A stretch of DNA of 64,000 bases from Herbidospora yilanensis (GTDB lineage Bacteria > Actinomycetota > Actinomycetes > Streptosporangiales > Streptosporangiaceae): NCBI RefSeq assembly GCF_001570565.1, contig NZ_BBXE01000032.1:62001-126000 (forward strand), written 5' to 3'. Shown here piece by piece: positions 6,560 through 20,850 of this stretch. A program made the translations under genes and the position numbers. How positions within the stretch are numbered: position 1 is the stretch's first letter; every line of letters starts with the position of its first letter. Under the pieces are notes generated by a model, which ran no database searches, was not told where the DNA came from, and saw only the letters and a list, made by a program, of their open reading frames with translations.

Positions 6560-6582
6560 GCGTTTCCACTCAGTGGGAACGC
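6560..6582. promoter_or_regulatory. Proposed IclR operator, site 1 (between hydrolase and CaiB operons)
   Basis: Near-perfect inverted repeat with 11-bp arms around one base; the core 19-mer at 6562-6580 is GTTTCCACTCAGTGGGAAC with one G-T mismatch. The same frame (RTTYCC, 7 bases, GGGAAY) recurs at 17165, 18004 and 20832, always just before starts of the catabolic island. It lies 43 bp from the hydrolase start and about 57 bp from the CaiB start, so it could control both divergent operons. Confidence 0.7.
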
Positions 6583-6637
6583 GGCGTTGGGGTGGGGGCC
6601 ATCTGTTCCTACGGTCTTCCTACCGATGGGAGATTGC

Positions 6638-7801
6638 ATGATCGACATGATGAGGGTGCTGAGTTTCTCGCACTTCGTGCAGGGGCCCGCGGCCTCGCAG
6701 TACCTGGCCGATCTCGGCGCCGACGTCGTCAAGGTCGAACCGCCCGGCGGGTCGTGGGAGCGCAGGATCGGCAGCGCGGGAATCAGGGTCGCCGGGCGCA
6801 GTGTGACGTTCCTGGCGGTCAACCGGAACAAACGCTCCATCGCCGTCGACCTCAAGCACCCGGACGCCCTCACTGTGCTCCGCCCGCTGATCGAGCAGGC
6901 GGACGTGCTGCTGGAGAACTACCGGGGCGGCGCGCTGGAGAAACTCGGTCTCGGGTACGAGGCCGTGCGCGCCGTCAAGCCGGACATCATCTACGCCTCG
7001 GCCAGCGGTTGGGGGGCGCGCGGCCCGATGGCCGGCAAGCCGGGGGTCGACCTGCTCGTGCAGGCCAGGACCGGTCTGGTGGACGTCACCGGCGACCGCC
7101 CCACCGCAGCGGGCACGCCCGTGGTCGACCAGCACGGCGCGGCGCTGCTCGCGATGGGGGTGCTGGCGGCGTACGCGCGGAAACTGGCCACCGGCGAGGG
7201 CACGCGGGTCGAGTCGAGCCTGCTCGGCGCCGGGCTGGACCTCCAGGCGGAATCGCTCGCGCTGTACTTCTCGGGCCGCAGGACCGCGACGGACGTGCGC
7301 CGCCCGGCCGAGACGGCCTGCTGGTCGATCGACGCGCCCTACGGCGTCTACCGGCTGCTCGACGCCTCGATCGTGATCGCCCTGAACGGGTCCGAGGACG
7401 ACCTCGGCGACGCGCTCGGGACCCCGGAGCTGGCTGAATACGACCGGCGGGCCCGGCGCGACGAGTACACGGCCGCGCTGGCCGGGGTGCTCGCCGGGAT
7501 GACCTACGCGGAGGCGGCCGCCCGGCTGGAGCCGCGCGGGTTCTGGATCGAGCGGGTGGCCTCCTACGACGACGTGCGCGACGATCCGCAGGTGGCGGCC
7601 GAAGGGCTGCTCGCCGAGTTCCCCGTGGGAGAGGAGCGGGCGACGGTGCTGCGGCACCCGGTCCGCTACGACGGCGAGTATCCCGGCCTGCGCACCGCTC
7701 CCCCCGAGCTCGGCGCGCACACCGTGGAGGTGCTGCGCGCGACCGGGTTCTCCGCTGCCGAGGTCGACGGCTTCCTCGCCGCCGGCGTGGTGTTCGCGTG
7801 A
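6638..7801 (+). CDS. CaiB/BaiF family (class III) CoA-transferase
   Basis: 387-aa class III CoA transferase, which moves CoA between acyl groups through an enzyme-bound anhydride. Family marks are LADLGADVVKVEPPGG near the N-terminus, NRNKRSIAVDLK (about 62-73) and the catalytic Asp138 in GKPGVDLLVQARTG. The length is normal. The chosen ATG follows a GGGAG at 5-base spacing; a longer version would read through the operator. The stop overlaps the GTG of the reductase gene. It is the first gene of a four-gene run with reductase, exporter and the IclR regulator. It implies that a CoA thioester is handled in this pathway; the acyl group is not known. Confidence 0.9.
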   Translation: MIDMMRVLSFSHFVQGPAASQYLADLGADVVKVEPPGGSWERRIGSAGIRVAGRSVTFLAVNRNKRSIAVDLKHPDALTVLRPLIEQADVLLENYRGGALEKLGLGYEAVRAVKPDIIYASASGWGARGPMAGKPGVDLLVQARTGLVDVTGDRPTAAGTPVVDQHGAALLAMGVLAAYARKLATGEGTRVESSLLGAGLDLQAESLALYFSGRRTATDVRRPAETACWSIDAPYGVYRLLDASIVIALNGSEDDLGDALGTPELAEYDRRARRDEYTAALAGVLAGMTYAEAAARLEPRGFWIERVASYDDVRDDPQVAAEGLLAEFPVGEERATVLRHPVRYDGEYPGLRTAPPELGAHTVEVLRATGFSAAEVDGFLAAGVVFA

Positions 7802-8796
7802 GCGGGCGGGCGTTGGTCTGCACCCGGCTCGGCGGGCCCGAAGATCTTGAGCTGGCCGACGTCGCGACCCCCGAGCCGGGGCCGGGGGAAGTGGTGGTCG
7901 CGGTCAGCCATGTGGGGTTGAACTTCCACGACACCCTGATCATCGCGGGCACTCATGTGGTGAAGCCGGAGCCGGTGTTCTCTCCCGGCAGCGAATACGC
8001 CGGCACGGTCGCGGCCGTCGGCGAAGGAGTCCTGTCCGTACGGCCCGGCGACCGCGTGGCGGGCAACGAGGAGTTCGGCTGCGCCCGTGACGCCGTGGTG
8101 GTGAGGGCCGACAGGGTCAGCCTGCTTCCCGCCCACGTCACCGACCGGCAGGCCGCGGCGATCCTGGTCGCCTACTCGACCGCCTATCACGCGCTCGTCC
8201 AGCGGGCCGGACTGCGGGCCGGTGAGACACTCGCCGTGCTCGGCGCGGCGGGCGGGGTCGGCTCCGCCGCCGTGGACGTGGGCAGGCTTCTCGGCGCTCG
8301 GGTGATCGCGGGCGCGTCGACACCGGAGCGGGCCGAGGCGGCCCGGCGGCACGGCGCGCACGCGACCTTCTCCTACGACGACCCCCGCGACGCCAAGACC
8401 ACGATCAAGGAGCTGACCGGGGGCGAGGGCGCCGACGTGGTGTTCGACCCGGTGGGCGGCGCGGTCGCGGAGTCCGCCGTGCGGGCCGTCGCGTGGGGCG
8501 GGAGGTATCTCGTGGTCGGGTTCGCCTCGGGGGGCATTCCGCGCGTCGCGCTGAACATCCCGCTGGTCAAGGGCGCCTCGGTGGTCGGAGTGTTCTGGGG
8601 GGAGTTCGTCCGGCGCGACCGGGCGGCCCAGGAGCGGAACCTCCACGAGATCTTCGACTGGGCCGGGGCGGGGCGGCTGCGCCACCACATCCACGACGTG
8701 CTCCCGCTTGAAGAAGGGCCGCGTGCGCTGCGCGAACTGGCCGACGGGCGGGTCCGGGGCAAGCTGCTGCTTCGTGCGGGCGGTCCGGCGGGATGA
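7798..8796 (+). CDS. Zinc-independent medium-chain reductase (NADPH:quinone oxidoreductase family)
   Basis: 332-aa medium-chain dehydrogenase/reductase. The GroES-like N-terminal domain holds VGLNFHDTLIIAG and no zinc ligand set. The Rossmann NADPH site is LGAAGGVGSAAVDVG near residue 150, followed by the ASTPERAEAARRHGA strand. The closest named groups are quinone oxidoreductase and enoyl reductase-like enzymes. It starts with GTG inside the CaiB stop (GTGA) and ends inside the MFS start (ATGA), so it is translationally coupled on both sides. Reduction of an unsaturated or quinone-like intermediate is inferred. Confidence 0.87.
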   Translation: MSGRALVCTRLGGPEDLELADVATPEPGPGEVVVAVSHVGLNFHDTLIIAGTHVVKPEPVFSPGSEYAGTVAAVGEGVLSVRPGDRVAGNEEFGCARDAVVVRADRVSLLPAHVTDRQAAAILVAYSTAYHALVQRAGLRAGETLAVLGAAGGVGSAAVDVGRLLGARVIAGASTPERAEAARRHGAHATFSYDDPRDAKTTIKELTGGEGADVVFDPVGGAVAESAVRAVAWGGRYLVVGFASGGIPRVALNIPLVKGASVVGVFWGEFVRRDRAAQERNLHEIFDWAGAGRLRHHIHDVLPLEEGPRALRELADGRVRGKLLLRAGGPAG

Positions 8797-10169
8797 CGCG
8801 ACGGCTCGACGGGGCCATGCTCCGGCCGCGGCTGGCTCTGGCCGCGCTGTTCGCGGGCACGATGCTCGCGCCGCTCAACTCCTCGATGGTCGCCGTCGCG
8901 CTCGCGCCCATCCAGCGTGACTTCGCGCAGCCGCTCGCCACGGCAACCTGGGTCGTCACGGTCTTCTACCTGACCGCCTGCGTCTGCCAGCCGGTGCTGG
9001 GCAGGGTGGCCGACCGGATCGGCCCGCGCACGCTGTTCACCGCCGGGATGGCGGTGGCGGCGCTCGCCTCGGCCGCGGCGGCCGTCGCCCCCTCGCTGCC
9101 ACTGCTCGTGTTCTTCCGAGGCCTGCAGGCGGCGGGGGTGTCGGCCGCGTTCCCGTGCGCGATGATCGTCATCCGGCGGAGCGGTGACACGACGGGGCTG
9201 GCCGCCGTCGCGACGGTCAACACGACCGCCGGGGCGGTCGGCCCGGTGCTCGGCGGGTTGCTGACCTCGTGGGCGGGGTGGCAGGCCATCTTCTGGGTCA
9301 ACCTGCCGATCATGGCGGGGGCACTGGTGATCGCGTGGCGCGCCATCGGCCCCGAGGAGCGGCGGCCCGCACGCGGCGGCCTGCTCCGCGCGATCGACCC
9401 GGCCGGGATCGTGCTGTTCGCGGTGGCGGTGGTCGGCCTGCTGGATCTGATGCTCGCCGCGCCGGGGATCTCCGTTCCCGGCCTGTGCGCCGTGCTCGCC
9501 GCCGGGACCGGGTTCCTGTGGTGGGAACGGCGGGCCACCAGGCCTTTCGTGGACGTCCGCGCGTTGTGCGCCGCCCCCGGGATCGTGCTCGTGCTGGGCA
9601 CGTTCGTGCTGTTCAATCTGGCCTACTACGGCGCGTTCTATGGCCTGCCGCAGTGGTTGCAGAACGTGCGCGGCTTCGACGCGGCCCAGGCGGGGCTGCT
9701 GATCATGCCGATCGCGGCCACCAGTGTCGTCGCGACCGTGCTCGGCGGTCCCCTCATGCGCCGGCTCGGCGTCGGCCGCACCCTTCTGGGCGGAGGCGGC
9801 ATGCTGCTGGCCGGGGTCGCCGCGATCACCACCTTCACCCCGGCCACCCCCGTCTGGGCCGTCGTGGTCGACGGCGTCGTGCTCGGGGTCCCTTACGGCC
9901 TGTGCAACCTCGGTCTCCAGCGGCTGATGTACGAGCGGGCGCCCGCCGGCATGTCCGGTGTGGTCGGCGGCCTGTTCCAGTCGGCCAGATATGTCGGCGC
10001 GATCCTCGCGGTCGGGCTGGTCGGCGTGTTCGCCCCCATCGACGTGCGCGCGCTGGCGGTGGCGATGACCTTCGTCGCGGCCGTCGTGGTCGTCGTCCTC
10101 GCCCATGACCTGCGGCGATCCAGAAATGATGCGATATTCTCAGCGAACCGGACGGCTGATCACCGATGA
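8793..10169 (+). CDS. MFS drug/metabolite exporter, 14-helix DHA2 (EmrB/QacA) type
   Basis: 458-aa membrane protein. It opens with LNSSMVAVALAPIQRDF, the family's helix-1 motif C-like sequence, then WVVTVFYLTACVCQPVLGRVADRIGPR (motif A) and FRGLQAAGVSAAFP. Many further helices follow, ending with a long AVAMTFVAAVVVVVLA helix. It is coupled to the reductase upstream and to the IclR gene downstream by ATGA overlaps. Export of a toxic intermediate, or import of a substrate, is possible; the sequence does not settle it. Confidence 0.88.
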   Translation: MTRRLDGAMLRPRLALAALFAGTMLAPLNSSMVAVALAPIQRDFAQPLATATWVVTVFYLTACVCQPVLGRVADRIGPRTLFTAGMAVAALASAAAAVAPSLPLLVFFRGLQAAGVSAAFPCAMIVIRRSGDTTGLAAVATVNTTAGAVGPVLGGLLTSWAGWQAIFWVNLPIMAGALVIAWRAIGPEERRPARGGLLRAIDPAGIVLFAVAVVGLLDLMLAAPGISVPGLCAVLAAGTGFLWWERRATRPFVDVRALCAAPGIVLVLGTFVLFNLAYYGAFYGLPQWLQNVRGFDAAQAGLLIMPIAATSVVATVLGGPLMRRLGVGRTLLGGGGMLLAGVAAITTFTPATPVWAVVVDGVVLGVPYGLCNLGLQRLMYERAPAGMSGVVGGLFQSARYVGAILAVGLVGVFAPIDVRALAVAMTFVAAVVVVVLAHDLRRSRNDAIFSANRTADHR

Positions 10170-11011
10170 CCCGACCCATGATTCTCCCCATGGCCCCGCC
10201 CCGCGATGCCCACAAACCCGGCAAGAGCGTGTCCAGCCGGGTCTTCGCCCTGCTCAACTCCTTCTCCCCCGAGCGCCCGGCACTCCGGCTCGTCGAGCTG
10301 ACCGCCATCACCGGGCTGCCGGTCTCCACGGTCCACCGCATCGCGGCCGAACTGGTCGAGCTGGGGGCGCTGAAGAAGGAACGCGACGGGGTCTACCGGA
10401 TCGGGCTGCGCATGTGGGAGCTGGGCGCCCTGTGCCCGCAGCCCCGCACGCTGCGCGACGTGTCACTGCCGTTCATCCACGACCTCTACGAGGCCACCGA
10501 GGAGAACATCCACCTGGCGGTGCTCGACGGCGACGAGGTCCTCTACGTCGAGCGGGTCTGGGGGCGCCGCTCGGTCGACGTGGTCAGCCGCGTCGGCGGC
10601 CGCTCGCCGCTGCACGCCACTGGGGTCGGCAAGATCCTGCTGGCCCACGCGTCCCGCGAGTTCCAGGAGACCGTGCTCGCGGCCACGCTCAAGCGGTACA
10701 CCCCGCACACGATCGTCATGCCCGGCCTGCTGATGCGCTCGCTCCAGGAGATCCGCGCCACCGGCATCGCCCGATGCGCCGAGGAGCTGTCGCTGGGCAC
10801 GGTGTCCGTGGCGGCCCCCGTCCACGGACCCGACGGCCGGGTGGTGGCCGCGCTCTCCGTCGTCTCGCACACCGTCACCCACACGCGGTCGCTGGCGGCG
10901 GTGGAGCCCGCGTTGCGACTGGCGGCCAAGTCGATCTCGCGCGAGCTCGCCAAGGGCTACGCGGCCGACTCCGCCGGCACGGTCACAACGATCCGGTCAG
11001 CAGCGCGGTGA
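10166..11011 (+). CDS. IclR-family transcription regulator of the catabolic island
   Basis: 281-aa regulator. The N-terminal winged helix has SRVFALLNSFSPERPALRLVELTAITGLPVSTVHRI (about 20-60), and the C-terminal IclR effector domain has VSLPFIHDLYEATEENIHLAVLDGDEVLYVERV and HATGVGKILLAH. It is the only regulator in the island and the last gene of the caiB operon. Its 3' end overlaps the 3' end of the decarboxylase gene by 29 bp. IclR proteins bind short inverted repeats, and four copies of a 19-bp repeat lie before the island's operons. That this protein binds them is inferred. Confidence 0.9.
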   Translation: MTRPMILPMAPPRDAHKPGKSVSSRVFALLNSFSPERPALRLVELTAITGLPVSTVHRIAAELVELGALKKERDGVYRIGLRMWELGALCPQPRTLRDVSLPFIHDLYEATEENIHLAVLDGDEVLYVERVWGRRSVDVVSRVGGRSPLHATGVGKILLAHASREFQETVLAATLKRYTPHTIVMPGLLMRSLQEIRATGIARCAEELSLGTVSVAAPVHGPDGRVVAALSVVSHTVTHTRSLAAVEPALRLAAKSISRELAKGYAADSAGTVTTIRSAAR

Positions 11012-11981
11012 TCGTCCCGGCCCTGATGGCCGCCGCCTCGCCGGGCGCGAGCCCGAGCGCCGCGACCGCGCCCACGGGGTCGGTGTCGGCGAGTTCGAAG
11101 GGGTAGTCCGTGCCGACGAGCACGTGGTCGACGCCGTAGTCCTCGACCAGCCGCCGCAGCAGCGGGGTGGAGAACGTGGCGGTGTCGTAGTAGAGGCGGC
11201 GCAGGTAGTCGCTCGGCGGGTGCGGCGTGGTGCGGGCCACCGGCTTGCGCGACCAGCCCAGGTCCAGCCTGCCGAGCAGGGACGGCAGGCAGCCGCCGCC
11301 GTGCGCGAGGCACAACCGCAGGGCGTGCCGTTCCAGGACGCCGCCGAGCACGAGCCGCGAGACGGCGAGCGCGGTCTCCATCGGGAAGCCCGCGAGCTGG
11401 GGCAGCCAGTAGTCGGCCAGCCGGGACCCACCGGGCACGCTGTTGGGGTGCAGGAAGACGAATGCCCGCCGGTCCGCGAGGAACTCCCAGAGCGGTTCGT
11501 GCACGGGATCGTCCAGCTCCCTCCCGAGGCCACGGGTGCCGATGGCGAGGCCGGCGCATTCCAGTTCGTCCAGGCAGCGACGGGCCTCTTCAACGGCGAC
11601 GGGGGTGCCGAGCGGGACCTGCCCGAGCGGGTCGAGCACCTCGCGGTGCCCGGCGAGGAGCTCGGCGAGCGCGTCGTTGCCGCGGCGGACCACGGCGAGG
11701 AGGTCCTGCTCGTCGGTGGCGTCGGCGCACGTCACGAAGGGTGGCAATGACACGAGCTGGCGGGTCACGCCCGTCTTGCGCAGGTCTTCCAGCCGTTTGG
11801 CGACGTCGTACTGGGCGGGCGGCAGCGGGATCGGCGCGCCCGCCGGTATCCCGGACACCAGCGGGTCGATCGTGACGACGCCGTCGGCGAGGCCGGACAG
11901 GTCGGCCAGGCCGCGATCGGACAACCAGGTCAGCAGGGCCGTCGGCAACGCATGGGTGTGGACGTCGACGACCTCGCTCAT
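10983..11981 (-). CDS. 2-Amino-3-carboxymuconate-6-semialdehyde decarboxylase (ACMSD)
   Basis: 332-aa amidohydrolase-superfamily decarboxylase that removes CO2 from the ring-opened product of 3-hydroxyanthranilate, giving 2-aminomuconate-6-semialdehyde. The zinc-site residues fall where known for ACMSD: His8 and His10 in DVHTHALP, His178 in FLHPN, His227 in LAHGGG and Asp292 in GTDYPF. The length matches the family. The ATG overlaps the stop of the CoA ligase-like gene by 4 bp, and the frame open upstream of it is the shadow of that gene. The ring-opening dioxygenase is two genes upstream, which strongly supports the assignment. Confidence 0.93.
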   Translation of the reverse strand: MSEVVDVHTHALPTALLTWLSDRGLADLSGLADGVVTIDPLVSGIPAGAPIPLPPAQYDVAKRLEDLRKTGVTRQLVSLPPFVTCADATDEQDLLAVVRRGNDALAELLAGHREVLDPLGQVPLGTPVAVEEARRCLDELECAGLAIGTRGLGRELDDPVHEPLWEFLADRRAFVFLHPNSVPGGSRLADYWLPQLAGFPMETALAVSRLVLGGVLERHALRLCLAHGGGCLPSLLGRLDLGWSRKPVARTTPHPPSDYLRRLYYDTATFSTPLLRRLVEDYGVDHVLVGTDYPFELADTDPVGAVAALGLAPGEAAAIRAGTITALLTGSL

Positions 11982-13105
11982 GGGGCCACCCGGCTCACGT
12001 AGTAGAGATAACCGTCGCTGTCGCGCCGGACGACGTCGCCGGTGCGCAGCCACCCGTCCACGACCGGGGTGCCCGGCGGGAAGGCGTAGGCGCGCGCGAT
12101 GGCCGGGCCACGCACCCACAGCTCTCCACCGTCGCCCAGGCGGATCTCCGTCCCGGGGAACGGCCGGCCGAGCGAGAAGCGGCGGAGCGGGTGGAGGTGG
12201 TCGGCCGGGCCGGTCCATGCGATCGTCTTGGGCGCTTCGACCTGGCCGAACACTCCACAGAGCACCTCGCCGAACAGCGCGTGCGCGCGGTCGACCTCGG
12301 CGGCGGTGAGCGAGGTGCCGCTGTAGACCACCAACTCCAGGCCGGACCAGTGAGGCCCTTCGAGCAGGGCGCGCAGCGTGGGAGGCATCGCCAGCAGCAC
12401 GGTCGGGCGGTGCTCGGCGGCGGCCTCCAGCAGCCCGCCGGGGCCGGGGCCTTCCGGGATGACGAAGGCGCCACCCAGCATCAGCGTCGGCAGCACCATG
12501 TTGCCGAAACCGCCGGACACCGAATCCCCGCAGAGCACGCGTGGTCTTCGGGGCCACGGAAGGGTGTCACGCAGCGCGGCCGCCACCGCGCCCAGCGCGC
12601 CGCCGGTCAGCTCGACGCCCTTGACCGGCCCGGTGGTACCGGAAGTGAATGCCAGGCGCACCACCGCCGACGCGGGCGCGGCAGGAGGTGTGAGCGGCTC
12701 CCGCCCGGCGGTCAGGTCACGGTCGGTCAGTACACGGACTTTCGGGTGCGCCCGTAGCCACGCGTCGAGATCGGGGTCGCCCGGCTCGGTGAGTACGGCG
12801 TCCGGCCCGACGAGGTCGAGCCGTCCGGTCAGCGCATCGCCGCGCAGGGCCCCCGGCGGCACCGCGGCGGACCGCAGGCCCGCCACGTAGCAGGCCGCGT
12901 TCACCAGCCACTGGAGCGGATCGTTCGGCCGGATCTGGAGCACCGTGTCACCCGGCCGCAGGCCGGATTCGGCCAGGGCCCCCGCCACGTCCAGCAGCAG
13001 CCGTTCCGCCTGCCGGTAGGTCAGCTCGGTTCTTCCCTGCCGGAAGGCGATCTCGTCGGAGCGGGCGCGTAGCGCGTCGAGGACCAGCCCGCCGATCGCG
13101 GTCAC
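11978..13105 (-). CDS. Acyl-CoA ligase-like protein without the C-terminal domain
   Basis: 375-aa member of the ANL (acyl/aryl-CoA ligase) family. The AMP-binding loop TSGTTGPVKG is at about 154-163, and the late motif LRTGDVVRRDSDGYLYYVSR is present. The chain then ends after RVAP, exactly where the hinge to the mobile C-terminal domain should begin, so about 110-130 residues and the catalytic A10 lysine are missing. There is no room for a lost domain: the stop overlaps the ACMSD start by 4 bp, and its own start overlaps the dioxygenase stop by 4 bp. It could make an acyl-adenylate only, use a partner, or have another role. The domain calls are seen; the function is open. Confidence 0.85.
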   Translation of the reverse strand: MTAIGGLVLDALRARSDEIAFRQGRTELTYRQAERLLLDVAGALAESGLRPGDTVLQIRPNDPLQWLVNAACYVAGLRSAAVPPGALRGDALTGRLDLVGPDAVLTEPGDPDLDAWLRAHPKVRVLTDRDLTAGREPLTPPAAPASAVVRLAFTSGTTGPVKGVELTGGALGAVAAALRDTLPWPRRPRVLCGDSVSGGFGNMVLPTLMLGGAFVIPEGPGPGGLLEAAAEHRPTVLLAMPPTLRALLEGPHWSGLELVVYSGTSLTAAEVDRAHALFGEVLCGVFGQVEAPKTIAWTGPADHLHPLRRFSLGRPFPGTEIRLGDGGELWVRGPAIARAYAFPPGTPVVDGWLRTGDVVRRDSDGYLYYVSRVAP

Positions 13106-13623
13106 AGGCGTTCGTCCGGCATGACCGTGCCGCAGGACTTGCAGGTCCGGGCGTCGACGTCGCCGTAGAAGCGCTGGTAGGCGGCGCCCACCGGGTCGGT
13201 GCGGTAATCGCTCACGTGGACGGCCACCTCGTGCAGGAACTCATCACAGGAGGGACAGAACCAGTGGAAGCGGTCGAGTTCGCCCGGCCGTCGCAGGCGC
13301 TCGATGACCAGCACGAACGAGTCGGGGGCGAACCGGGGCGAATGGGCGATGCCGGTCGGGGTGAAGATGGTGCCGCCCTCGGGGATCACCGCGATGTCCG
13401 AGCCGCCCTCCGGCTTGCGGTAGTGCAGGTTCATCGAGCCACGCACCATGAACATCACCTCGTCGCTCGGGTTGAGGTGGAACTCACTGCGGTACTCGCG
13501 GCCACGGGCGAGGAAGGCGAGTGACTCGCTCTCCTGCCACAGCACCTTGACCCGCTTGCCGCTCTCCTGGAGTTCGACGGTCGCCTTGAGCAGTTCGACG
13601 ATGGGCATCTGGCTGGGGTGCAT
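13102..13623 (-). CDS. 3-Hydroxyanthranilate 3,4-dioxygenase
   Basis: 173-aa cupin that opens the ring of 3-hydroxyanthranilate with O2. Metal ligands of the family line up as His49, Glu55 and His94 (in FHLNPSDE and GIAHSPR). Arg45, Arg97 and Glu108 (VIERLRRPGELD) match substrate-contact positions. The bacterial-type rubredoxin-like iron site is complete: Cys123, Cys126, Cys161 and Cys164. The residue two before His49 is Glu where bacterial homologues usually have Asp. A clear AGGAGG lies 7 bases before the ATG. The gene is followed without gap by the CoA ligase-like gene and ACMSD. Confidence 0.95.
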   Translation of the reverse strand: MHPSQMPIVELLKATVELQESGKRVKVLWQESESLAFLARGREYRSEFHLNPSDEVMFMVRGSMNLHYRKPEGGSDIAVIPEGGTIFTPTGIAHSPRFAPDSFVLVIERLRRPGELDRFHWFCPSCDEFLHEVAVHVSDYRTDPVGAAYQRFYGDVDARTCKSCGTVMPDERL

Positions 13624-13647
13624 CTCGTTGCCTCCTGAATCTGCCGG

Positions 13648-15216
13648 TCAGCCGAGCCGGCCGGTGTCGTACACGATCTGACCGTCGACGACGGTCATCA
13701 GCACTTCGGTCGCCCGGAGCCGGTCGCCGGACGCGGTGAGCGGGTCGGCGTCGACGACGGCGAGGTCGGCGAGGGCGTCCACGACGAGCCGGCCCTTCAC
13801 CTCCTGTTCGCCGGTGTGCGCGGCGCCCGAGGCGGTGTAGAGGCGCAGGGCCTCGGCCCGGCTGATCGCCTGCGCGGCCCCGGCGACCTCGCCCGCCGCG
13901 TCATGCCTGGTCGTCATGGCGTGGATGTTCTGGAACGGGTCGAGGTCGTTGATCGGATAGTCGGTGCCGGCCGCGACGCCGTCGGGGCCGAGGCCGTCGA
14001 CGAGGTCGCGCAGCGGCACGGCGGCCTCGGCGCGGGCCGGGCCGAGATGGCCGGCGATGACCTTCCGGTTGCGCCACAGGAACGGGATCTGCGCGGCCAC
14101 CTGCACGCCGAGCGCGCGGGCGCGGGCGATCTGGTCGCGGGTGATGAGGCTGGCGTGGATGAGCACGTCCGGGAGGAGACCCGGGTGCCGGGTGGCCTCG
14201 TAGACGTCGAGCGCGAGGTCGATCGCGGCGTCGCCCACCACATGGGTGCCGACCGGCCAGCCCGCGCGGTGCGCCGCGCCGACCAGCTCACCCAGCCGGG
14301 CGCGGTCGGTGAACAGCTCGCCGTGGTAGCCGGGGCGGCCGAGGTAGGGCTCGCGGGTGGCCGCGGTGCCGAGTGTCATGCCGCCGTCCACCTGGAGTTT
14401 GACTCCACGGGTGAGGTAGTGGCGGCCGACGGGCGCGGGCGGCCCGCCGGCCAGCAGCGACTCCCAGTCGGCGAGCGGGATCGACGGGTTGAGCTCGCCG
14501 GTCGGCATGACCATCGCGGCCACCCGGAGAGTCGATCTTCCGTCCGCGGCCAGTTCACGGATCGACTCGACGTCGGGCGGCGGCAGCGCGCCCGCCACGA
14601 CGGAGGTGATCCCGCGCCGGTTGAGCGCCCGCATGGCGGCGGTGAGCTGGGCCGCCCGCTCCTGGCGGGTCCACCGCGGCACCACCAGGGCGACGGCCTG
14701 CATGGCGCCCTCCACCAGCCTGCCGTCGTGCCCGGCGGGGTCGACTCCGGCCCGCTCCAGCGCGGCGGTGCTGACCGTCGCGGCGTGGCCCTCCGGCAGG
14801 TAGACCGGGCGTCCACCCGCCGCGCGGTCCAGCTCGTGCCGGTCCGGCCCGCGCCTTTCCGCGAGCTGGAGCGCGGGGTTCCACGGTTGTCCCTGCACCC
14901 AGGCGCCAGGCTCGCGGGTGGCGGCCAGCGCGGCGACGCGGTCGAGCGCTTCGCCGAGCGTGCGCGCACCCGCGAACGACACGGTGTGGCCGTCCATGCC
15001 CGCGTTCTCGAAGTGGGCGTGTGAGTCGATCAGCCCGGGGATCACGGTCCGGCCCGCCAGGTCGACCACTCGGGTGGACGGCCCGGCCAGGCGGGCGACG
15101 TCGGCGGTCGTGCCGACGGCGGAGATCCGGCCGCCGGTCACCGCGATCGCCTCGGCGGCCGTGCCGCGCGCGTCCGGCACGAGCACCCGGCCGCCGAGCA
15201 GGATCAGGTCGGTCAT
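13648..15216 (-). CDS. Amidohydrolase family 3 (YtcJ-type) metal-dependent hydrolase
   Basis: 522-aa amidohydrolase. Its first metal motif is VIPGLIDSHAHFEN (near residue 65), later come GTHVVGDAAIDLAL and LIHASLI, and the last motif is AAGTDYPINDLDPF. This is the layout of the YtcJ/N-acyl amide hydrolase group, which cleaves amides or carbamates. It starts at ATG 15216, overlapping the RidA stop by 4 bp, and ends 24 bp before the dioxygenase start. It is not part of the known 3-hydroxyanthranilate pathway. One inference is that it frees 3-hydroxyanthranilate or a relative from an N-acylated precursor. Confidence 0.88.
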   Translation of the reverse strand: MTDLILLGGRVLVPDARGTAAEAIAVTGGRISAVGTTADVARLAGPSTRVVDLAGRTVIPGLIDSHAHFENAGMDGHTVSFAGARTLGEALDRVAALAATREPGAWVQGQPWNPALQLAERRGPDRHELDRAAGGRPVYLPEGHAATVSTAALERAGVDPAGHDGRLVEGAMQAVALVVPRWTRQERAAQLTAAMRALNRRGITSVVAGALPPPDVESIRELAADGRSTLRVAAMVMPTGELNPSIPLADWESLLAGGPPAPVGRHYLTRGVKLQVDGGMTLGTAATREPYLGRPGYHGELFTDRARLGELVGAAHRAGWPVGTHVVGDAAIDLALDVYEATRHPGLLPDVLIHASLITRDQIARARALGVQVAAQIPFLWRNRKVIAGHLGPARAEAAVPLRDLVDGLGPDGVAAGTDYPINDLDPFQNIHAMTTRHDAAGEVAGAAQAISRAEALRLYTASGAAHTGEQEVKGRLVVDALADLAVVDADPLTASGDRLRATEVLMTVVDGQIVYDTGRLG

Positions 15217-15629
15217 GGCTGCCTGACGGCGGCGATGCACTCGACCTCGACCTGCACGCCGGTGCGGTGCGGGGTCGCGATGATCGTGGTCCGCGCGGGG
15301 AAGTGCGGGTTGCCCTCGAAGAACTCGCGGTAGACGGCGTTGAAGGTCGGGAAGTTCGCCACGTCGGCCACGAAGCAGGTGCACTTGAGGATGGTCTCCC
15401 GGCCGCCGCCCGCCGCCTCGACGACCGCGACCAGGTTGGCGAGCGTCTGCCTGACCTGGGCGGCGAAGTCGTCGGAGACGATGGTGCGGGTCTCCGGGTC
15501 GAGCGGCCCGGTGCCCGAGCAGTAGATGGTGCCGCCGTGCACGATCGCCTGGGACAGCGGCGCGGCCGTCCCCGTGGAGAAGCCCACCGTGGGCGCGTTG
15601 CGGGTGCTGACGGCTCGGATTTCGGTCAT
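15213..15629 (-). CDS. RidA-family protein, probable 2-aminomuconate deaminase
   Basis: 138-aa Rid/YjgF protein. The conserved Arg113 (FPARTTIIA) and Glu130 are present, as in enamine/imine deaminases of this fold. The ATG at 15629 has AAGGAG 7 bases upstream; a start further upstream is not supported. Its gene sits between the aldehyde dehydrogenase and the amidohydrolase. In 3-hydroxyanthranilate and 2-aminophenol pathways the 2-aminomuconate deaminase is a protein of this family and size, converting 2-aminomuconate to 4-oxalocrotonate. The specific reaction is inferred from neighbours. Confidence 0.85.
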   Translation of the reverse strand: MTEIRAVSTRNAPTVGFSTGTAAPLSQAIVHGGTIYCSGTGPLDPETRTIVSDDFAAQVRQTLANLVAVVEAAGGGRETILKCTCFVADVANFPTFNAVYREFFEGNPHFPARTTIIATPHRTGVQVEVECIAAVRQP

Positions 15630-15667
15630 GCTCTGCTCCTTGCGAGTCGGACGTGCGATGACGCCCG

Positions 15668-17113
15668 TCACGAGATCTCCATGATGACGGCTTTGGGCTC
15701 GGTGAAGAACTCCCGGCTGTACGTACCGCCTTCACGTCCGACACCCGAGTTTTTGGCCCCGCCGAAAGGAGCCCGCAGATCCCGGACGAAGAAGCAGTTC
15801 GCCCAGACGGTGCCGACCCGCAGCGCGCGGGCGACGCGGTGGGCGCGGGAGAGGTCCCGGGTGAACAACATGGCGTTCAGGCCGTACGGCGTGTCGTTGG
15901 CCAACGCCACCGCGTCCGCCTCGCCGTCGAACGGGAGCACGACCACGACCGGCCCGAAGATCTCCTCCTGGGTGACCCGGTCGTGCTGCCCGGCGCCGAC
16001 CACCACTGTCGGCCGGACGGTCCAGCCCTCGCCCACGCCGCCCGTGTGCAGCCGCGCGCCGGCCCCGGTCGCGATGTCGAGGTAACCGGCGACCTTGGTG
16101 AAGTGCTCCCGCGAGGACAGCGGGCCGACCTCGGTGGCCGGATCCTTGGGGTCGCCGATCACCAGCGCGTCGGCCGCCGCGGTGAACTTGGCGAGGAACT
16201 CGTCGTAGACCTCGCGCTGCACGTAGAGCCGGCTTCCGGCCAGGCACACCTGCCCGCTGTTGCTGAACACGGCCTGGATGGACCAGCGGACCGCGTGGTC
16301 GAGGTCGGCGTCGGCGAAGACGATGTTCGCGCCCTTGCCGCCCAGTTCCAGGCTCACCGGGGTCAGGTTGGCCGCGGCCGCCCGGGAGATCAGGCGGCCG
16401 GTGGTCGACTCGCCGGTGAAGGTGATCCGGTCGACCAGCGGCGACTCGGTCAGCGCCTGGCCGACGGAGTCCGGCCCGAATCCGTGGACGACGTTCAGCA
16501 CACCCGGCGGCAGACCCGCCTCGAGCGCCAGCCGCGCCAGGATGGTGGCCGAGGCGGGCGACTGCTCGGCGGGCTTGAGCACGACCGTGTTCCCCCAGGC
16601 CAGCGCGGGCGCGACCTTCCAGCTCGCCATCATGAGCGGGAAGTTCCACGGCGCGATGGCGGCCACCACCCCGGCGGGGTCGTACTGGGTGAAGGCGTGG
16701 TGCCCGGCCGGCATCGGGAACGTCTCGTTGGGGGTGAGCTGCGCGTGGTCGGCGAAGAACCGGAAGTTCCGCGCGGCGCGGGGGACGTCGTGGCCCGCCG
16801 TCTGGGTGATCGGTTTGCCCATGTCCGAGGTGTCGGCCGCCGCCAGTTCACCGACGTGCTCCTCCAGCAGGTCGGCGAGGCGGTGCAGGATCGCGCCGCG
16901 TTCGGCGAAGTTCATCCGGGGCCAGGGCCCCTCGTCGAAGGCCGACCGCGCGACGCGTACGGCGCGGTCGGCGTCACCGGCCGAGCCGAGCGCCACCGTG
17001 GCCCACGGCTCCCGCGTCCAGGGGTCCACCGACTCGAACCCCGTCCCATCGGCCGAGGCGACCTCCTCACCCGCGATGACGTGCCCGAACGATTCCACCC
17101 TGGTCCTCCTCAT
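15668..17113 (-). CDS. Aldehyde dehydrogenase, probable 2-aminomuconate-6-semialdehyde dehydrogenase
   Basis: 481-aa NAD-dependent aldehyde dehydrogenase. Asn157 (APWNFP), Glu256 (LELGGK) and the nucleophile Cys290 (NSGQVCLAGSR) are in place. The sequence around Cys290 resembles the hydroxymuconic/aminomuconic semialdehyde dehydrogenases. With ACMSD and the RidA-type deaminase in the same operon, oxidation of 2-aminomuconate-6-semialdehyde is the likely step. ATG 17113 is preferred; a TTG at 17158 would add 15 residues. An operator-like repeat lies 52 bp upstream, between this gene and the enoyl-CoA hydratase, so it may have its own promoter. Confidence 0.9.
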   Translation of the reverse strand: MRRTRVESFGHVIAGEEVASADGTGFESVDPWTREPWATVALGSAGDADRAVRVARSAFDEGPWPRMNFAERGAILHRLADLLEEHVGELAAADTSDMGKPITQTAGHDVPRAARNFRFFADHAQLTPNETFPMPAGHHAFTQYDPAGVVAAIAPWNFPLMMASWKVAPALAWGNTVVLKPAEQSPASATILARLALEAGLPPGVLNVVHGFGPDSVGQALTESPLVDRITFTGESTTGRLISRAAAANLTPVSLELGGKGANIVFADADLDHAVRWSIQAVFSNSGQVCLAGSRLYVQREVYDEFLAKFTAAADALVIGDPKDPATEVGPLSSREHFTKVAGYLDIATGAGARLHTGGVGEGWTVRPTVVVGAGQHDRVTQEEIFGPVVVVLPFDGEADAVALANDTPYGLNAMLFTRDLSRAHRVARALRVGTVWANCFFVRDLRAPFGGAKNSGVGREGGTYSREFFTEPKAVIMEIS

Positions 17114-17164
17114 GTCTCGGTGCAGGTAACTTTCGGCGTGCGACCAGCGCACGCTCAACGAACG

Positions 17165-17183
17165 GTTTCCATTCGCCGGGAAT
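17165..17183. promoter_or_regulatory. Proposed IclR operator, site 2 (before the dehydrogenase gene)
   Basis: GTTTCC, seven bases, GGGAAT: the same 19-bp frame as site 1. It lies in the 75-bp gap between the enoyl-CoA hydratase stop and the aldehyde dehydrogenase start, 52 bp before that start. It would give the dehydrogenase-RidA-amidohydrolase-dioxygenase-ACMSD segment its own regulated promoter. Confidence 0.6.
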
Positions 17184-17188
17184 CGCGG

Positions 17189-17962
17189 TCAGCGGCCTCG
17201 TACCGCGTGCGACCACTCCGCCCAGCGCAGGGCGAACCCGGGCGAGTTCGTCGCCCGGATCTGCTCGGCGATCTCCCGGTCCACCGCGTCGGCGAACCCG
17301 CCCTCGGCCGCCGCCGCGATCAGGCGTTTGGTGGCCCTGGCCGCTTCGGGGGGCGCCGCCGCGAGTTGCCCGGCGCGATCGAGAGCCTGTGCGAGCGGGT
17401 CATCCGTCACGACGTCGAGCAGGCCGATCCGGGCGGCCTCCGCCGCCGTGACCTTGCGTCCCGACACCGCGAGTTCCGTCGCCCGCGCCGCGCCGACCGC
17501 TCTCGTGAGCAGCCACGGCACGCCGAAGTCGGGGACCAGCGCCATCTTGACGAAGGTGCTGGCGAACAGCGCGCCGGGTGAGCCGATCCGCAGGTCGCAC
17601 GCGAGGGCGAGGGCCATCCCGGCGCCGACGGCCGGGCCGTCCACGGCGGCGACGGTCGGGGCGGGGAAGTCCAGGATCAGTTCGGCGATGGAGAATTCGT
17701 GGGTCATCCGCTCCCGTGCGTCTTCGGGTGTCTCGTTCCCCAGGTCGCCTATCGCGTCCAGGTCCCCGCCCGCGCAGAACGCGCCGCCGCGTCCGGTCAC
17801 CACCAGGGCCCGCACATCGGTGTCGCCGTGCAGCCCGCGCAGCACCCCGGGCAGCCTGTCGAGCAGGGCCCGATCCAGCGCGTTGCGGCGGTGCGGCCGA
17901 TCGAGTTCCAGCAGCACGATCCCGTCGGAGGGGTGCGTCAGCCGCAGTCCAGGTACGTCCAT
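17189..17962 (-). CDS. Enoyl-CoA hydratase/isomerase family protein
   Basis: 257-aa crotonase-fold protein. The oxyanion-hole segments are GGAFCAGGDLDAIGDL (about 60-75) and VDGPAVGAGMALALACDLRIG (about 110-130), and the C-terminal helix region ends in the usual trimerisation segment. The normal active-site Glu pattern is not clear enough to name a reaction. It is transcribed away from the short-chain dehydrogenase, with an operator-like repeat 42 bp before its start. With CaiB and the ligase-like gene it points to a CoA-thioester branch in this island. Confidence 0.88.
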   Translation of the reverse strand: MDVPGLRLTHPSDGIVLLELDRPHRRNALDRALLDRLPGVLRGLHGDTDVRALVVTGRGGAFCAGGDLDAIGDLGNETPEDARERMTHEFSIAELILDFPAPTVAAVDGPAVGAGMALALACDLRIGSPGALFASTFVKMALVPDFGVPWLLTRAVGAARATELAVSGRKVTAAEAARIGLLDVVTDDPLAQALDRAGQLAAAPPEAARATKRLIAAAAEGGFADAVDREIAEQIRATNSPGFALRWAEWSHAVRGR

Positions 17963-18003
17963 GGCCCCAGCCGACCGGACGCGGGCCCCGGCTGCCAGGA
18001 ACG

Positions 18004-18022
18004 GTTCTCATTGAGCGGAAGC
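18004..18022. promoter_or_regulatory. Proposed IclR operator, site 3 (between enoyl-CoA hydratase and short-chain dehydrogenase)
   Basis: Read on the minus strand the 19-mer is GCTTCCGCTCAATGAGAAC, matching site 1 at 15 of 19 positions in the same register. It lies 42 bp before the hydratase start and 64 bp before the dehydrogenase start on the other strand, so one site could serve both. Confidence 0.6.
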
Positions 18023-18085
18023 CCGCAGGTGGCGGGTGGCGTGCCGCCGAGCATGATCGGGTCGTACACCGATTTCTTGGAGGAC

Positions 18086-18829
18086 ATGGTGACTGGGCAG
18101 TTGCGCGGCAAGACGGCGATCGTCACCGGCGCGGCGTCGGGCATCGGACGCGCGACCGCCGCGCTGTTCGCGGCCCGAGGCGCGGCGGTGCTCGCCGTGG
18201 ACCGCGACGAGAAGGGCCTGTCGGAACTGCGGGACGTTTCCGTGCTGGCCGTGGATCTCACCACGGCGGGCGCGGCGGAGCGGGTCTTCGCCCACTGCGC
18301 CGAGGTCGTCGGCGTGCCGGACGTGCTCGCCAACATCGCGGGCCGGGCCGGCGACCGCTCCGCCGCCGAGACCACGGACGAGGACTTCGACGCGTTCCTG
18401 CGGACCAACCTCGGCACGACGTTCGCGCTCAGCCGCGCGGCGGTGATCGCGTTCGGCGAGGCGGGCGGGGCCATCGTCAACACGTCCTCGGCGTTCGCGC
18501 TGACCGGGGTCGCGGGGTCGGCGCCGTACTCGGCGGCCAAGGGGGCGGTCTCCAGCCTCACCCGCCAGATGGCGGCCGACTACGGCAGGCGCGGCATCCG
18601 GGTGAACGCGGTGGCGCCCGGCCTCATCGAGACCCCGGCCACCGCCGCGAGGATCGCGACGGGGACCTTCGACGACCTGGTGACCAGGTCGCGCCCGCTG
18701 GCCAGGGTCGGGCAGCCGATCGACGTCGCGCGGGTGATCGCGTTCCTGGCCTCCGACGAGGCTGACTTCGTCACCGGCCTCACCGTCCCGGTGGACGGCG
18801 GCTGGAGCAGCACCCACTTCCGCGACTGA
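18086..18829 (+). CDS. Short-chain dehydrogenase/reductase
   Basis: 247-aa classical SDR. The NAD(P) site is GAASGIGRA (about 12-20), followed by NIAGRAG, the catalytic Ser in NTSSAF, and the active-site pair in YSAAK. VAPGLIETP and VDGGW close the fold. GGAGG sits only 2 bases before the ATG, so the adjacent GTG (18089) or an ATG at 18052 could be used instead. It stands alone on the plus strand between the divergent hydratase operon and a strong terminator. It may oxidise or reduce a hydroxy-acyl intermediate; this is inferred. Confidence 0.88.
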   Translation: MVTGQLRGKTAIVTGAASGIGRATAALFAARGAAVLAVDRDEKGLSELRDVSVLAVDLTTAGAAERVFAHCAEVVGVPDVLANIAGRAGDRSAAETTDEDFDAFLRTNLGTTFALSRAAVIAFGEAGGAIVNTSSAFALTGVAGSAPYSAAKGAVSSLTRQMAADYGRRGIRVNAVAPGLIETPATAARIATGTFDDLVTRSRPLARVGQPIDVARVIAFLASDEADFVTGLTVPVDGGWSSTHFRD

Positions 18830-18835
18830 TCGTGA

Positions 18836-18868
18836 AAAGGCCGGAGCCGCTGGACGGCTCCGGCCTTT
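18836..18868. terminator. Strong bidirectional hairpin terminator
   Basis: A perfect 14-bp stem (AAAGGCCGGAGCCG and its complement) around a 5-base loop CTGGA, with A-rich and T-rich flanks. It lies 6 bp after the short-chain dehydrogenase stop and 8 bp before the tautomerase stop on the other strand, so it ends both converging transcripts. Confidence 0.85.
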
Positions 18869-18875
18869 CTGTTTG

Positions 18876-19073
18876 TCACGAACGCGCCCGCTGCTCCGCG
18901 ATCGTCTCGCCGCCCGCGGTCCAGCGGGCCGGTGGCACCTCCCGTACCAGGATTCGCACGGATGCCGAGGGCACTCCGAGGGAACGCACGACCGCCTCGT
19001 GCACGGCCGAGATCATCTCGCGCAGTTCCGATTCGGTACGGCCGGTCAGCAGTGACACGTCGATGATCGGCAT
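18876..19073 (-). CDS. 4-Oxalocrotonate tautomerase
   Basis: 65-aa tautomerase that interconverts 2-hydroxymuconate and 4-oxalocrotonate. After loss of Met, the catalytic Pro1 is exposed, and Arg11 and Arg39 fall exactly at the canonical catalytic positions. Position 50 is Trp where the reference enzymes have Phe. The start overlaps the stop of the MFS transporter gene (ATGA), so it is the second gene of a two-gene operon. It links deamination of 2-aminomuconate to the decarboxylase at 20893. Confidence 0.92.
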   Translation of the reverse strand: MPIIDVSLLTGRTESELREMISAVHEAVVRSLGVPSASVRILVREVPPARWTAGGETIAEQRARS

Positions 19074-20734
19074 CAGACGTCCTGGCGGACGACGGCCGGT
19101 TCTTCGGCGGTGTCACCGGGGATGCGGACGTCGGCGAGGTCCACGCCCTTGCTCTCCGGCAGCGTGAACAGCAGGATCAGCAGGCCCAGCGCCAGCCCGC
19201 CGACCGGATACCAGAGTGCGGCGGTGGTGCTGCCTATCTCCGCGCCGATCGCGACCATCGTGGCCGGCAGGAGCCCGCCGAACACGCCGACGCCCAACTG
19301 GTAGGGGATCGAGAGCGCGGTGGCCCGGATGCGGGTCGGGAACACCTCCGCCATCGCCGCCGAGGCCGGGCCCTGGGCCATCTGCGCGAACGCGACCAGG
19401 GCGAGCAGCAGCAGCGCCACGGTGATGACGGGCCCGCTGAAGAAGTCACCGATTCCACTGATCCTGATGGTGTTCGCGGAACCGCCGACCGGATATCCGG
19501 CCGTCTTGAGGGCGGCCGACAGGTCGTCCTTCAGCGCCGGACCGCCGGTCACCGTGGCGCCGTTCACAATGATCTTGGTGGGGCCGGTGACGTCCTCCCG
19601 GTCGAAGGAGACCGAATTCGACTGGAGCACGCTCCGCGCCACGTCGCAGTCGGAGGTGAAGGTCGCGGTGCCCGCCGGGTTGAACTGGAAGGAACACTCG
19701 GCCGGGTCGGCCTGGATGGTGACCGACACCGTGTCCTGGGCGCGGGCGAGATCGGGGTTGGCGTTCGAGATGACGCCGGCGGTGATCGGGAACACCAGCA
19801 GGGCGGCGAGCCCGAGCCCGGCGAACAGCACCGGCTTGCGCCCGATCCGGTCGGACAACCAGGTCGCGAAGACGCACAGGAAGAACCCGATCAGCAGGAT
19901 CACCATGAAGATCGCGTTGACGGTGAAGGAGTCGACCTTGAGGTAGGTCCTCATCGTGGTCACCATGTAGACGGTCGACAGGTAGCCGATGAACGACTGC
20001 GCCGACGCCATCACGAACACGATCGCCACCATGCGGACCCGGGCCCGTGAGCCGAACGCCTCGCGCAGCGGCGCCTTGGTCTGGGTGCCCTCCTGCTTCA
20101 TCTTCTGGAACAGCGGGCTCTCGTTCAGCTTGCTGCGGATCCACACCGAGAACGCGAGCGGCACGACGGAGATGAGGAACGGCACCCGCCAGCCCCAGTC
20201 CTCGAAGGCGTCCGCGCCCACGATGGCCTGCACCAGCAGCTGCACCCCCACCGACAGGCTGAAAGCGAGCGCCGTGGTGCCCGTCAGCCAGCCGATGAAG
20301 TAGCCGCGCTGCCGCGCCGGGGCGTATTCGGAGACGTAGGTGACCGCGGCGCCGAACTCACCGCTGACCGCCAGACCCTGCAGGATGCGGCAGGTCACCA
20401 GCAGGATCGGCGCCAGGATGCCGATCTCCTCGGAGGTGGGCAGCAGCCCGACGACGACCGTCGAGAGGCCCATCAGCACCAGCGTCACCAGGAAGACGAT
20501 CTTCCGGCCGAGGATGTCGGTGATCCGGGCGAACAGCAGCGCGCCGATGGGGCGGACGATGAACCCGGCGGCGAAGGTCAGCAGCGCGAACACGGTCTGC
20601 GCGGAGGGGCTGTAATCGCCGAAGAACTTGCTGCCGATCACCGGGACGAGCGCGCCGTAGAGAAAGAAGTCGTACCACTCGAACGCCGTACCGACGGCAG
20701 ACGCGCCGACGACCTTGAATTCCTGTTTGTTCAT
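19073..20734 (-). CDS. MFS transporter of the metabolite:H+ symporter type with an inserted extracytoplasmic segment
   Basis: 553-aa transporter. The start MNKQEFKVVGASAVGTAFEWYDFFLYG, and RPIGALLFARITDILGRK soon after, are hallmarks of the MHS group (proline/betaine, shikimate and aromatic-acid importers). Usual length is about 430-450. Here a segment of roughly 100 residues, starting NANPDLARAQDTVSVTIQADP and ending near GIGDFFSGP, is inserted between late helices and looks extracytoplasmic, with two cysteines. GGAGGA lies 8 bases before ATG 20734. It is cotranscribed with the tautomerase. Uptake of the pathway substrate is the likely role. Confidence 0.88.
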   Translation of the reverse strand: MNKQEFKVVGASAVGTAFEWYDFFLYGALVPVIGSKFFGDYSPSAQTVFALLTFAAGFIVRPIGALLFARITDILGRKIVFLVTLVLMGLSTVVVGLLPTSEEIGILAPILLVTCRILQGLAVSGEFGAAVTYVSEYAPARQRGYFIGWLTGTTALAFSLSVGVQLLVQAIVGADAFEDWGWRVPFLISVVPLAFSVWIRSKLNESPLFQKMKQEGTQTKAPLREAFGSRARVRMVAIVFVMASAQSFIGYLSTVYMVTTMRTYLKVDSFTVNAIFMVILLIGFFLCVFATWLSDRIGRKPVLFAGLGLAALLVFPITAGVISNANPDLARAQDTVSVTIQADPAECSFQFNPAGTATFTSDCDVARSVLQSNSVSFDREDVTGPTKIIVNGATVTGGPALKDDLSAALKTAGYPVGGSANTIRISGIGDFFSGPVITVALLLLALVAFAQMAQGPASAAMAEVFPTRIRATALSIPYQLGVGVFGGLLPATMVAIGAEIGSTTAALWYPVGGLALGLLILLFTLPESKGVDLADVRIPGDTAEEPAVVRQDV

Positions 20735-20831
20735 CGACGAATTCCTCCAGCCAGGAGTGCTATGCCCGCCACGGGCTCGACGGCGGGTTGGAGCGACCGT
20801 AGGACCGGTGGTGACGGAAGCAACCACGTCG

Positions 20832-20850
20832 ATTCCCGGTGTGTGGGAAT
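20832..20850. promoter_or_regulatory. Proposed IclR operator, site 4 (between MFS and decarboxylase genes)
   Basis: ATTCCC, seven bases, GGGAAT: perfect 6-bp arms in the same 19-bp frame as the other three sites. It is 43 bp before the decarboxylase start and about 98 bp before the divergent MFS start. Confidence 0.65.

Follow-up and report, generated by a model that had tools for sequence, protein, structure and literature searches.

A candidate IclR regulon of five palindromic operators in a catabolic island of Herbidospora yilanensis and other actinobacteria

We analysed a stretch of 64,000 nucleotides from Herbidospora yilanensis (in the following: the window; G000:C32:62001-126000, i.e., part of contig C32 of genome G000), which carries a catabolic gene island together with a gene for an IclR-family regulator. 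Given the computed sites, their conservation and spacing as well as the gene content, we consider it likely that this IclR protein is a pathway-specific regulator which binds five palindromes and controls, by activation, nine units of a mobile catabolic island. That is, an IclR dimer or tetramer would bind five 19-bp palindromes, four within the window and one to its left, with a pathway metabolite as effector. With operon limits as we infer them, nine transcription units with 24 genes would be under control: the ABC importer, the hydratase-acetaldehyde dehydrogenase-aldolase operon, the hydrolase pair, caiB-adh-MFS-iclR, the run from aldh to acmsd, ech, sdr, the MFS-tautomerase pair and the decarboxylase. 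The iclR gene would be autoregulated via the operator of its own operon.

Operator sites and their conservation

Operator 1 (6562-6580, GTTTCCACTCAGTGGGAAC) is located between hyd2 on the minus strand and caiB-adh-mfs1-iclR on the plus strand. Operator 2 (17165-17183, GTTTCCATTCGCCGGGAAT) is upstream of the minus-strand run aldh-ridA-amidohydrolase-hao-AMP ligase-acmsd and has the 3' end of ech on its other flank. Operator 3 (18004-18022, GTTCTCATTGAGCGGAAGC) separates ech (minus) from sdr (plus), and operator 4 (20832-20850, ATTCCCGGTGTGTGGGAAT) separates mfs2-tautomerase (minus) from od (plus). All are 19-bp palindromes with a consensus of about GTTTCC-N7-GGAAAC (core TTTCC-N7-GGAAA). The gap between operator edge and start codon is 42 bp for hyd2, 57 for caiB, 41 for ech, 66 for sdr, 42 for od and 97 for mfs2, and for aldh it is 51 or 66 bp depending on the start codon chosen. 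A first-pass annotation, which had proposed the four sites, gave gaps of 42-64 bp; this holds for some genes, but over all of them the gaps range from 41 to 97 bp.

A symmetric matrix derived from the four sites scores them in-sample with 21.9-28.6, and the next window position reaches 12.1. We also trained a symmetric matrix on 18 sites from other genomes (relatives' matrix). Since these were chosen with the four-site matrix, the sequences are out-of-sample but the motif is not fully independent. The ech/sdr sites of three relatives (loci L018-L020), which are identical to that of the window, and one weak ech/sdr site (L023) were left out. With the relatives' matrix, operators 1-4 score 27.7, 24.8, 18.3 and 19.3, i.e., operator 3 is the lowest of the four, and the next window position reaches 9.9. 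The four proposed sites thus stand out beyond chance.

A fifth operator (G000:C32:60812-60830; score 19.9 with the relatives' matrix) is located 1.2 kb left of the window, such that five island positions with scores of at least 18.3 are found within 22 kb. On one side of it is a hydratase gene (start 43 bp away), followed by genes for acetaldehyde dehydrogenase and hydroxy-oxovalerate aldolase. On the other side is the gene for an ABC solute-binding protein (SBP), whose GTG is 42 bp away and whose operon enters the window and extends to 4855. The regulon is therefore larger than first proposed, since it gains this site just outside the window and, with it, the importer operon that occupies the first part of the window. 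With site 5 included, controlled genes would flank four of the five sites on both sides.

A dioxygenase search of GTDB species genomes yielded 33 loci. Six of them, across four genera, carry the syntenic island including iclR: Acrocarpospora pleiomorpha (L018), Microbispora siamensis (L019), Acrocarpospora catenulata (L020), Amycolatopsis tucumanensis (L021), Amycolatopsis jejuensis (L022) and Streptomyces samsunensis (L023). The identity of the island dioxygenase is 74-94% in these six loci, compared with only 35-37% for the dioxygenase copies of six other Herbidospora genomes, which suggests horizontal transfer of the island.

Operators 1, 2 and 3 are kept in the corresponding gaps of all seven islands (that of H. 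yilanensis included), although the ech/sdr site of S. samsunensis is weak (14.0). Operator 4 is found in 4/4 islands with both genes adjacent in the examined DNA. When the four-site matrix is applied to the loci of the five other relatives, the top three or four matches (18.4-25.8) are in the corresponding gaps; for S. samsunensis this holds for the top two (24.2, 22.2). The A. jejuensis locus has a site before mfs2, and od was not found in that locus. In S. samsunensis, mfs2 is located elsewhere in the genome and is preceded by two sites (16.8 and 18.2). Neither mfs2 nor od was found in the examined stretches of the A. catenulata genome.

The importer and hydratase sites extend the motif to genes that were not used in its definition. 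Sites before the orthologous importer are present in 5/6 other genomes (those of L018, L019, L020, L021 and L023); the importer was not located in the examined stretches of the sixth, A. jejuensis. The importer site of S. samsunensis is the weakest (18.2); the SBP match begins about 185 bp away from it, and the spacing seen elsewhere is not kept. Before the hydratase, sites are found in A. pleiomorpha and M. siamensis, both with tandem sites, and in S. samsunensis, where the hydratase is relocated and uses the aldh site in common. The hydratase operon was not located in the other three genomes (L020, L021, L022). Gene order is changed in Streptomyces, yet the operators still adjoin the genes.

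Some relatives show damaged genes. In A. pleiomorpha, ech is internally deleted (L018:6134-6529; judged by eye) and both flanking operators are retained. The hydratase of the same species is matched only piecewise (L093:6956-7218), and the acetaldehyde dehydrogenase and aldolase of M. siamensis are found in frame pieces (L095:7385-8664). Operators are kept in both of the latter cases, which may reflect decay or assembly error.

Finally, we ranked the operator against all other windows in alignments of the gaps (4-7 islands each). It is ranked 1/101, 4/74 and 2/108 by conservation in three gaps and 41/140 in the mfs2/od gap, the latter since conservation is even higher in the mfs2 leader. This leader (20735-20790, minus strand) can form a GC-rich hairpin; stem bases are changed in the relatives and the z-score is weak (-0.4 to -2.6).

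The shared 19-mers could in principle be chance palindromes or generic promoter sequence instead of operators. The rank in the mfs2/od gap would fit this, as would the abundance of loosely defined patterns of this kind: an IUPAC motif with at most one mismatch matches 35 places in the H. yilanensis genome, compared with 6 for a reversed control pattern. However, the palindromes are retained in seven islands despite the gene rearrangement in Streptomyces, the operator windows of the other three gaps rank near the top, and such matrix scores occur elsewhere only about once per Mb. We thus regard a chance origin as extremely improbable.

Specificity of the motif and assignment to the IclR protein

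Whole-genome scans with the loose IUPAC motif turned out too permissive as proof of specificity and were replaced by out-of-genome matrices and a background of 2.02 Mb, about a quarter of the H. yilanensis genome. With the relatives' matrix, this background contains 2 positions with a score of at least 18 and none of at least 20, i.e., a rate of about 1 per Mb. In 8 Mb of simulated random sequence, a matrix of all sites finds 2 positions of at least 18 and 1 of at least 20. It is the full matrix together with the clustering, not the loose motif, that confers specificity. Two outcomes had been named beforehand that would have spoken against the regulon, namely a motif common genome-wide and a lack of conservation upstream of orthologues. 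Neither was found, given the two background positions and the six other genomes, and the comparison supports the shared operator, the co-regulation of the genes listed in the first-pass annotation and the IclR assignment.

We furthermore built a model (R1) of 34 rows from the relatives' sites, most of them in both orientations, and searched with E-values up to 10. In the 7.85-Mb H. yilanensis genome, 150 of 2936 candidates were scored and 2 places are reported at E <= 10, both of them island sites. For the six relatives, we count 21 distinct places, 16 of which belong to the island or to satellite operons. Since 15 of these 16 were model-building sites, the informative places are only the five outside and the satellite site G008:C40:43506. 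No match is found in 5 of six congeners without the island.

Several observations weigh against the proposed regulon or its assignment to the island IclR. With the relatives' matrix, the non-island position C21:7853 (18.6) outranks operator 3, and a matrix from Amycolatopsis and Streptomyces only ranks operator 4 11th of 36 candidate places. Three of the five H. yilanensis sites are not reported by R1, being below threshold or not scored. R1 has one place in the remaining congener and matches in 7/9 genomes that lack an iclR hit at the hao locus (drawn from the 27 non-island loci). With the four-site matrix, none of these nine hao loci exceeds 13.2, and the maximum over all 27 non-island loci is 15.4 (L037). 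Because R1 matches are scattered in genomes without the island, the motif type is probably common to other IclR regulons, with clustering as the specific feature. Moreover, given 14 IclR_C matches in the H. yilanensis genome, some of which share one frame, the assignment of the operators to this IclR protein is not exclusive, and a site of A. jejuensis (L084) is beside an IclR with 48% identity, i.e., paralogues can have this motif type.

The presumed operator binder is encoded at 10166..11011 (plus strand) as the last gene of the caiB operon, which is characterised by 4-bp gene overlaps. The protein contains the IclR helix-turn-helix (PF09339, 46.2 bits, cut-off 22) and C-terminal effector domains (PF01614, 139.4 bits, cut-off 24). 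Its gene is present in 7/7 islands, and the presumed recognition helix is nearly invariant among the 7 orthologues (GLPVSTVHR or GMPVSTVHR). The best NCBIfam match is TIGR02431 (E-value 8.7e-45), where its 153 bits are below the membership cut-off of 284.75.

A different IclR paralogue might bind the sites, or several might share them. Besides the number of IclR_C matches and the A. jejuensis paralogue, an IclR helix-turn-helix gene of A. tucumanensis (L089:11208-11867) beside the importer site is in line with this. On the other hand, it is the island iclR that co-occurs with the operators in all seven islands, and its own operon has a site. We therefore judge a paralogue as binder unlikely. 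Left of the hydratase operon, a regulator that we assign to the LuxR type by its sequence (L017:12583-15321) was considered as well and rejected, since the other compared loci contain no match to it at E <= 1e-20.

The motif also fits a published IclR class. The group-1 palindromes of PMC8222616 are of odd length, and the inner 17 bp of the island operator agree, compared by eye, with WTTYCRYW3RYGRAAW at most positions; an outer G/C pair makes the island operator 19 bp instead of 17. It is accordingly of group-1 type near the starts of regulated genes, and for most IclR sites the centre is reported between -20 and -80 relative to the gene start (PMC8222616). The operator listed for GenR, ATTCC-N7(5)-GGAAT (Table 1 of PMC8222616), is close to the core of the island motif. 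GenR of Corynebacterium glutamicum (3-hydroxybenzoate/gentisate) is, like the protein studied here, an actinobacterial IclR regulator of aromatic catabolism. GenR both activates and represses. It differs in its pathway, whereas the island has five operators, nine units and a regular, often two-sided spacing. PcaR, PcaU and PobR belong to TIGR02431, the best-matching family, yet their operators as listed in PMC8222616 are of GTNCG type. Taken together, the part of the earlier assignment that stands is that motif and iclR are conserved together and that the motif is of a known IclR type; binding by this very protein is what we expect from this pattern.

Promoter layout and mode of action

We investigated the layout of the putative promoters for 58 gene-facing operator sides from 7 genomes, many of which are related by descent. 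In 35/58 sides, a -10-like YANNNT box begins 29 or 30 bp from the operator edge, compared with at most 6 for any offset pair clear of this peak. A weak -35-like box (TTG or TGG) is present at 6 or 7 bp from the edge in 37/58 sides. For H. yilanensis, 6/9 sides have the YANNNT box, and none of 1000 base shuffles attains this number at any offset. In the typical arrangement, 6-7 bp would thus separate the palindrome from a weak -35-like box downstream, and the -10-like box would begin at 29-30 bp.

The two boxes are distributed unevenly among the genes. YANNNT is found for hyd2 in 7/7 sides (TTG/TGG: 0/7), for caiB in 6/7 (6/7), for mfs2 in 6/7 (3/7), for od in 4/4 (4/4), for SBP in 5/6 (1/6) and for sdr in 4/7 (7/7). 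Less compatible with a common layout, it is missing before the hydratase (0/6; TTG/TGG 3/6) and rare before aldh (1/7; 7/7) and ech (2/7; 6/7, with the A. pleiomorpha remnant included).

In H. yilanensis, the start codons of hyd2, od, ech and SBP are 41-42 bp from the operator edge and that of the hydratase 43 bp. These five starts would directly follow the -10 position, a layout known from leaderless transcripts, and the operator centre would be at about -52 of the predicted transcription start. The near-constant distance between operator and promoter on both sides suggests activation rather than blocking, i.e., IclR would activate the promoters from a fixed position.

The same regulon could also be under an IclR repressor that is released by a pathway intermediate, with the bound dimer or tetramer covering the -35 box. 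Repressors, activators and dual regulators are all reported among IclR members (PMC8222616), and an operator that ends 6 bp above -35 is compatible with repression, too, since the footprint might exceed the palindrome and extend to the -35-like box. Steric repression, however, does not need a fixed spacing on both sides, and the palindromes are clear of the predicted -10 and start regions. Repression is thus possible but appears rather doubtful to us, and activation by the island IclR is the reading that we follow below.

Some further matches were considered for the regulon. Those of L082, L083 and L085 (relatives) as well as L188 and L155 (H. yilanensis) are inside open frames, have no YANNNT at offset 29/30 and were rejected. 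In S. samsunensis, a site at L081:7023-7041 is 96 bp before an operon for an HsaA-type flavin monooxygenase, with TAGTGT at offset 29. We left it out of the count because it may be the site of another IclR; it possibly belongs to another regulon or to an extension of the island regulon.

Gene content, pathway and meaning of the regulon

The left end of the window is occupied by the importer operon on the plus strand. It consists of the 3' end of the SBP gene (1..447; its start at L017:18873 is left of the window and faces operator 5), orf392 (444..1622), a permease (1624..2541) and a large open reading frame (2531..4855) with two ABC ATPase stretches, whose N-terminal part gave no permease match. 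For the protein of orf392, neither Pfam nor NCBIfam gave a match, and its AlphaFold2 model is too poor for use (mean pLDDT 43), but the gene is kept in the importer operon of all five other genomes where this operon was found. The minus-strand alpha/beta hydrolase genes hyd1 (4812..5660) and hyd2 (5653..6519) are followed on the plus strand by those for a CaiB-type CoA transferase (caiB, 6638..7801), a zinc-type dehydrogenase/quinone reductase (adh, 7798..8796) and MFS transporter 1 (mfs1, 8793..10169), the operon that ends with iclR.

The minus-strand run encodes an ACMSD-like amidohydrolase (acmsd, 10983..11990; PF04909, no NCBIfam match), an AMP-binding enzyme (11978..13105), a ring-cleaving dioxygenase resembling 3-hydroxyanthranilate dioxygenase (3-HAO; hao, 13102..13623), an amidohydrolase (13648..15216; PF07969), a RidA-type protein (15213..15671; 2-aminomuconate deaminase-like by context) and an aldehyde dehydrogenase of muconate-semialdehyde type (aldh, 15668..17113). 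The remaining genes are those for an enoyl-CoA hydratase (ech, 17189..17962, minus), a short-chain dehydrogenase (sdr, 18089..18829, plus), a 4-oxalocrotonate tautomerase-like protein (18876..19073, minus), MFS transporter 2 (mfs2, 19073..20734, minus) and a 4-oxalocrotonate decarboxylase-like protein (od, 20893..21672, plus).

The set for the 2-aminomuconate lower pathway is complete, i.e., semialdehyde dehydrogenase, deaminase, tautomerase, decarboxylase, hydratase, aldolase and acetaldehyde dehydrogenase. Of these, acetaldehyde dehydrogenase and aldolase are above their NCBIfam cut-offs, and the other five were assigned by matches below the equivalog cut-off or by Pfam domain. The hydrolases, CoA transferase, AMP-binding enzyme, hydratase, amidohydrolase, importer and orf392 suggest a putative upper pathway from some precursor. 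All genes, including the CoA-type ones, may serve one pathway. Two dioxygenase loci from alphaproteobacterial metagenome-assembled genomes (L036, L037) both carry a CaiB-type gene, L037 also a short-chain dehydrogenase, hinting that CoA-type steps are part of the pathway more widely.

The earlier label of a 3-hydroxyanthranilate island is only partly supported, since the dioxygenase deviates from characterised 3-HAO. It passes the Pfam 3-HAO domain (67 vs. 25 bits) and is below the cut-off of TIGR03037 (NbaC; 110.3 vs. 145.95 bits). Its loop reads HSPRF, as in 33/33 homologues found by the dioxygenase search, in contrast to HSPQR in PDB 1yfu and in 7/7 distant copies of the genus, among them the second copy of the H. 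yilanensis genome (C56:13268-13672, L016). The arginine of the HSPQR loop in characterised 3-HAO binds the substrate carboxylate. Given the HSPRF loop and the score below the TIGR03037 cut-off, the substrate may not be 3-hydroxyanthranilate itself; that an ACMSD-like gene is present speaks for a product with a carboxyl group. A more detailed version of the activation reading can be given tentatively: one IclR would activate a programme from import to pyruvate, with the palindrome midway between two outward, often leaderless promoters (about -52 from each), for an amide- or CoA-processed aminophenolic compound that is cleaved via a non-classical 3-HAO subfamily.

A related arrangement is the ARO microcompartment locus of Actinobacteria, where genes of 2-aminophenol-type meta-cleavage are likewise beside an IclR regulator (PMC10470539). 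There, lower-pathway genes are in satellite loci whose link is left open in that study; here the operator ties them in. The dioxygenase is a different one (PMC10470539), and no shell-protein domain was found among the 20 proteins scanned with Pfam. We found no publication on the island or its operator in the literature searched (titles and abstract beginnings).

An IclR catabolic regulon as such is a known kind of bacterial switch; the island regulon is a well-supported new example, with a notably regular promoter layout. An IclR regulator is described as generally controlling its own gene plus one or two neighbouring operons (PMC8222616), and with nine units the island regulon would thus be broad for the family. 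Its 24 genes, among them those for CoA-type enzymes, an orphan protein and an importer, would form a single regulated unit, which appears to move between actinobacterial genera together with its operators. The predicted binding site, promoter map and regulator are concrete, and inducer screening with operator reporters would provide a handle on the substrate. The layout may also offer a clean case for studying possible activation of a divergent promoter pair by an IclR protein at a single operator. Overall, it is very probable that in several soil actinobacteria one regulator governs both uptake and breakdown of a nitrogen-containing aromatic compound.

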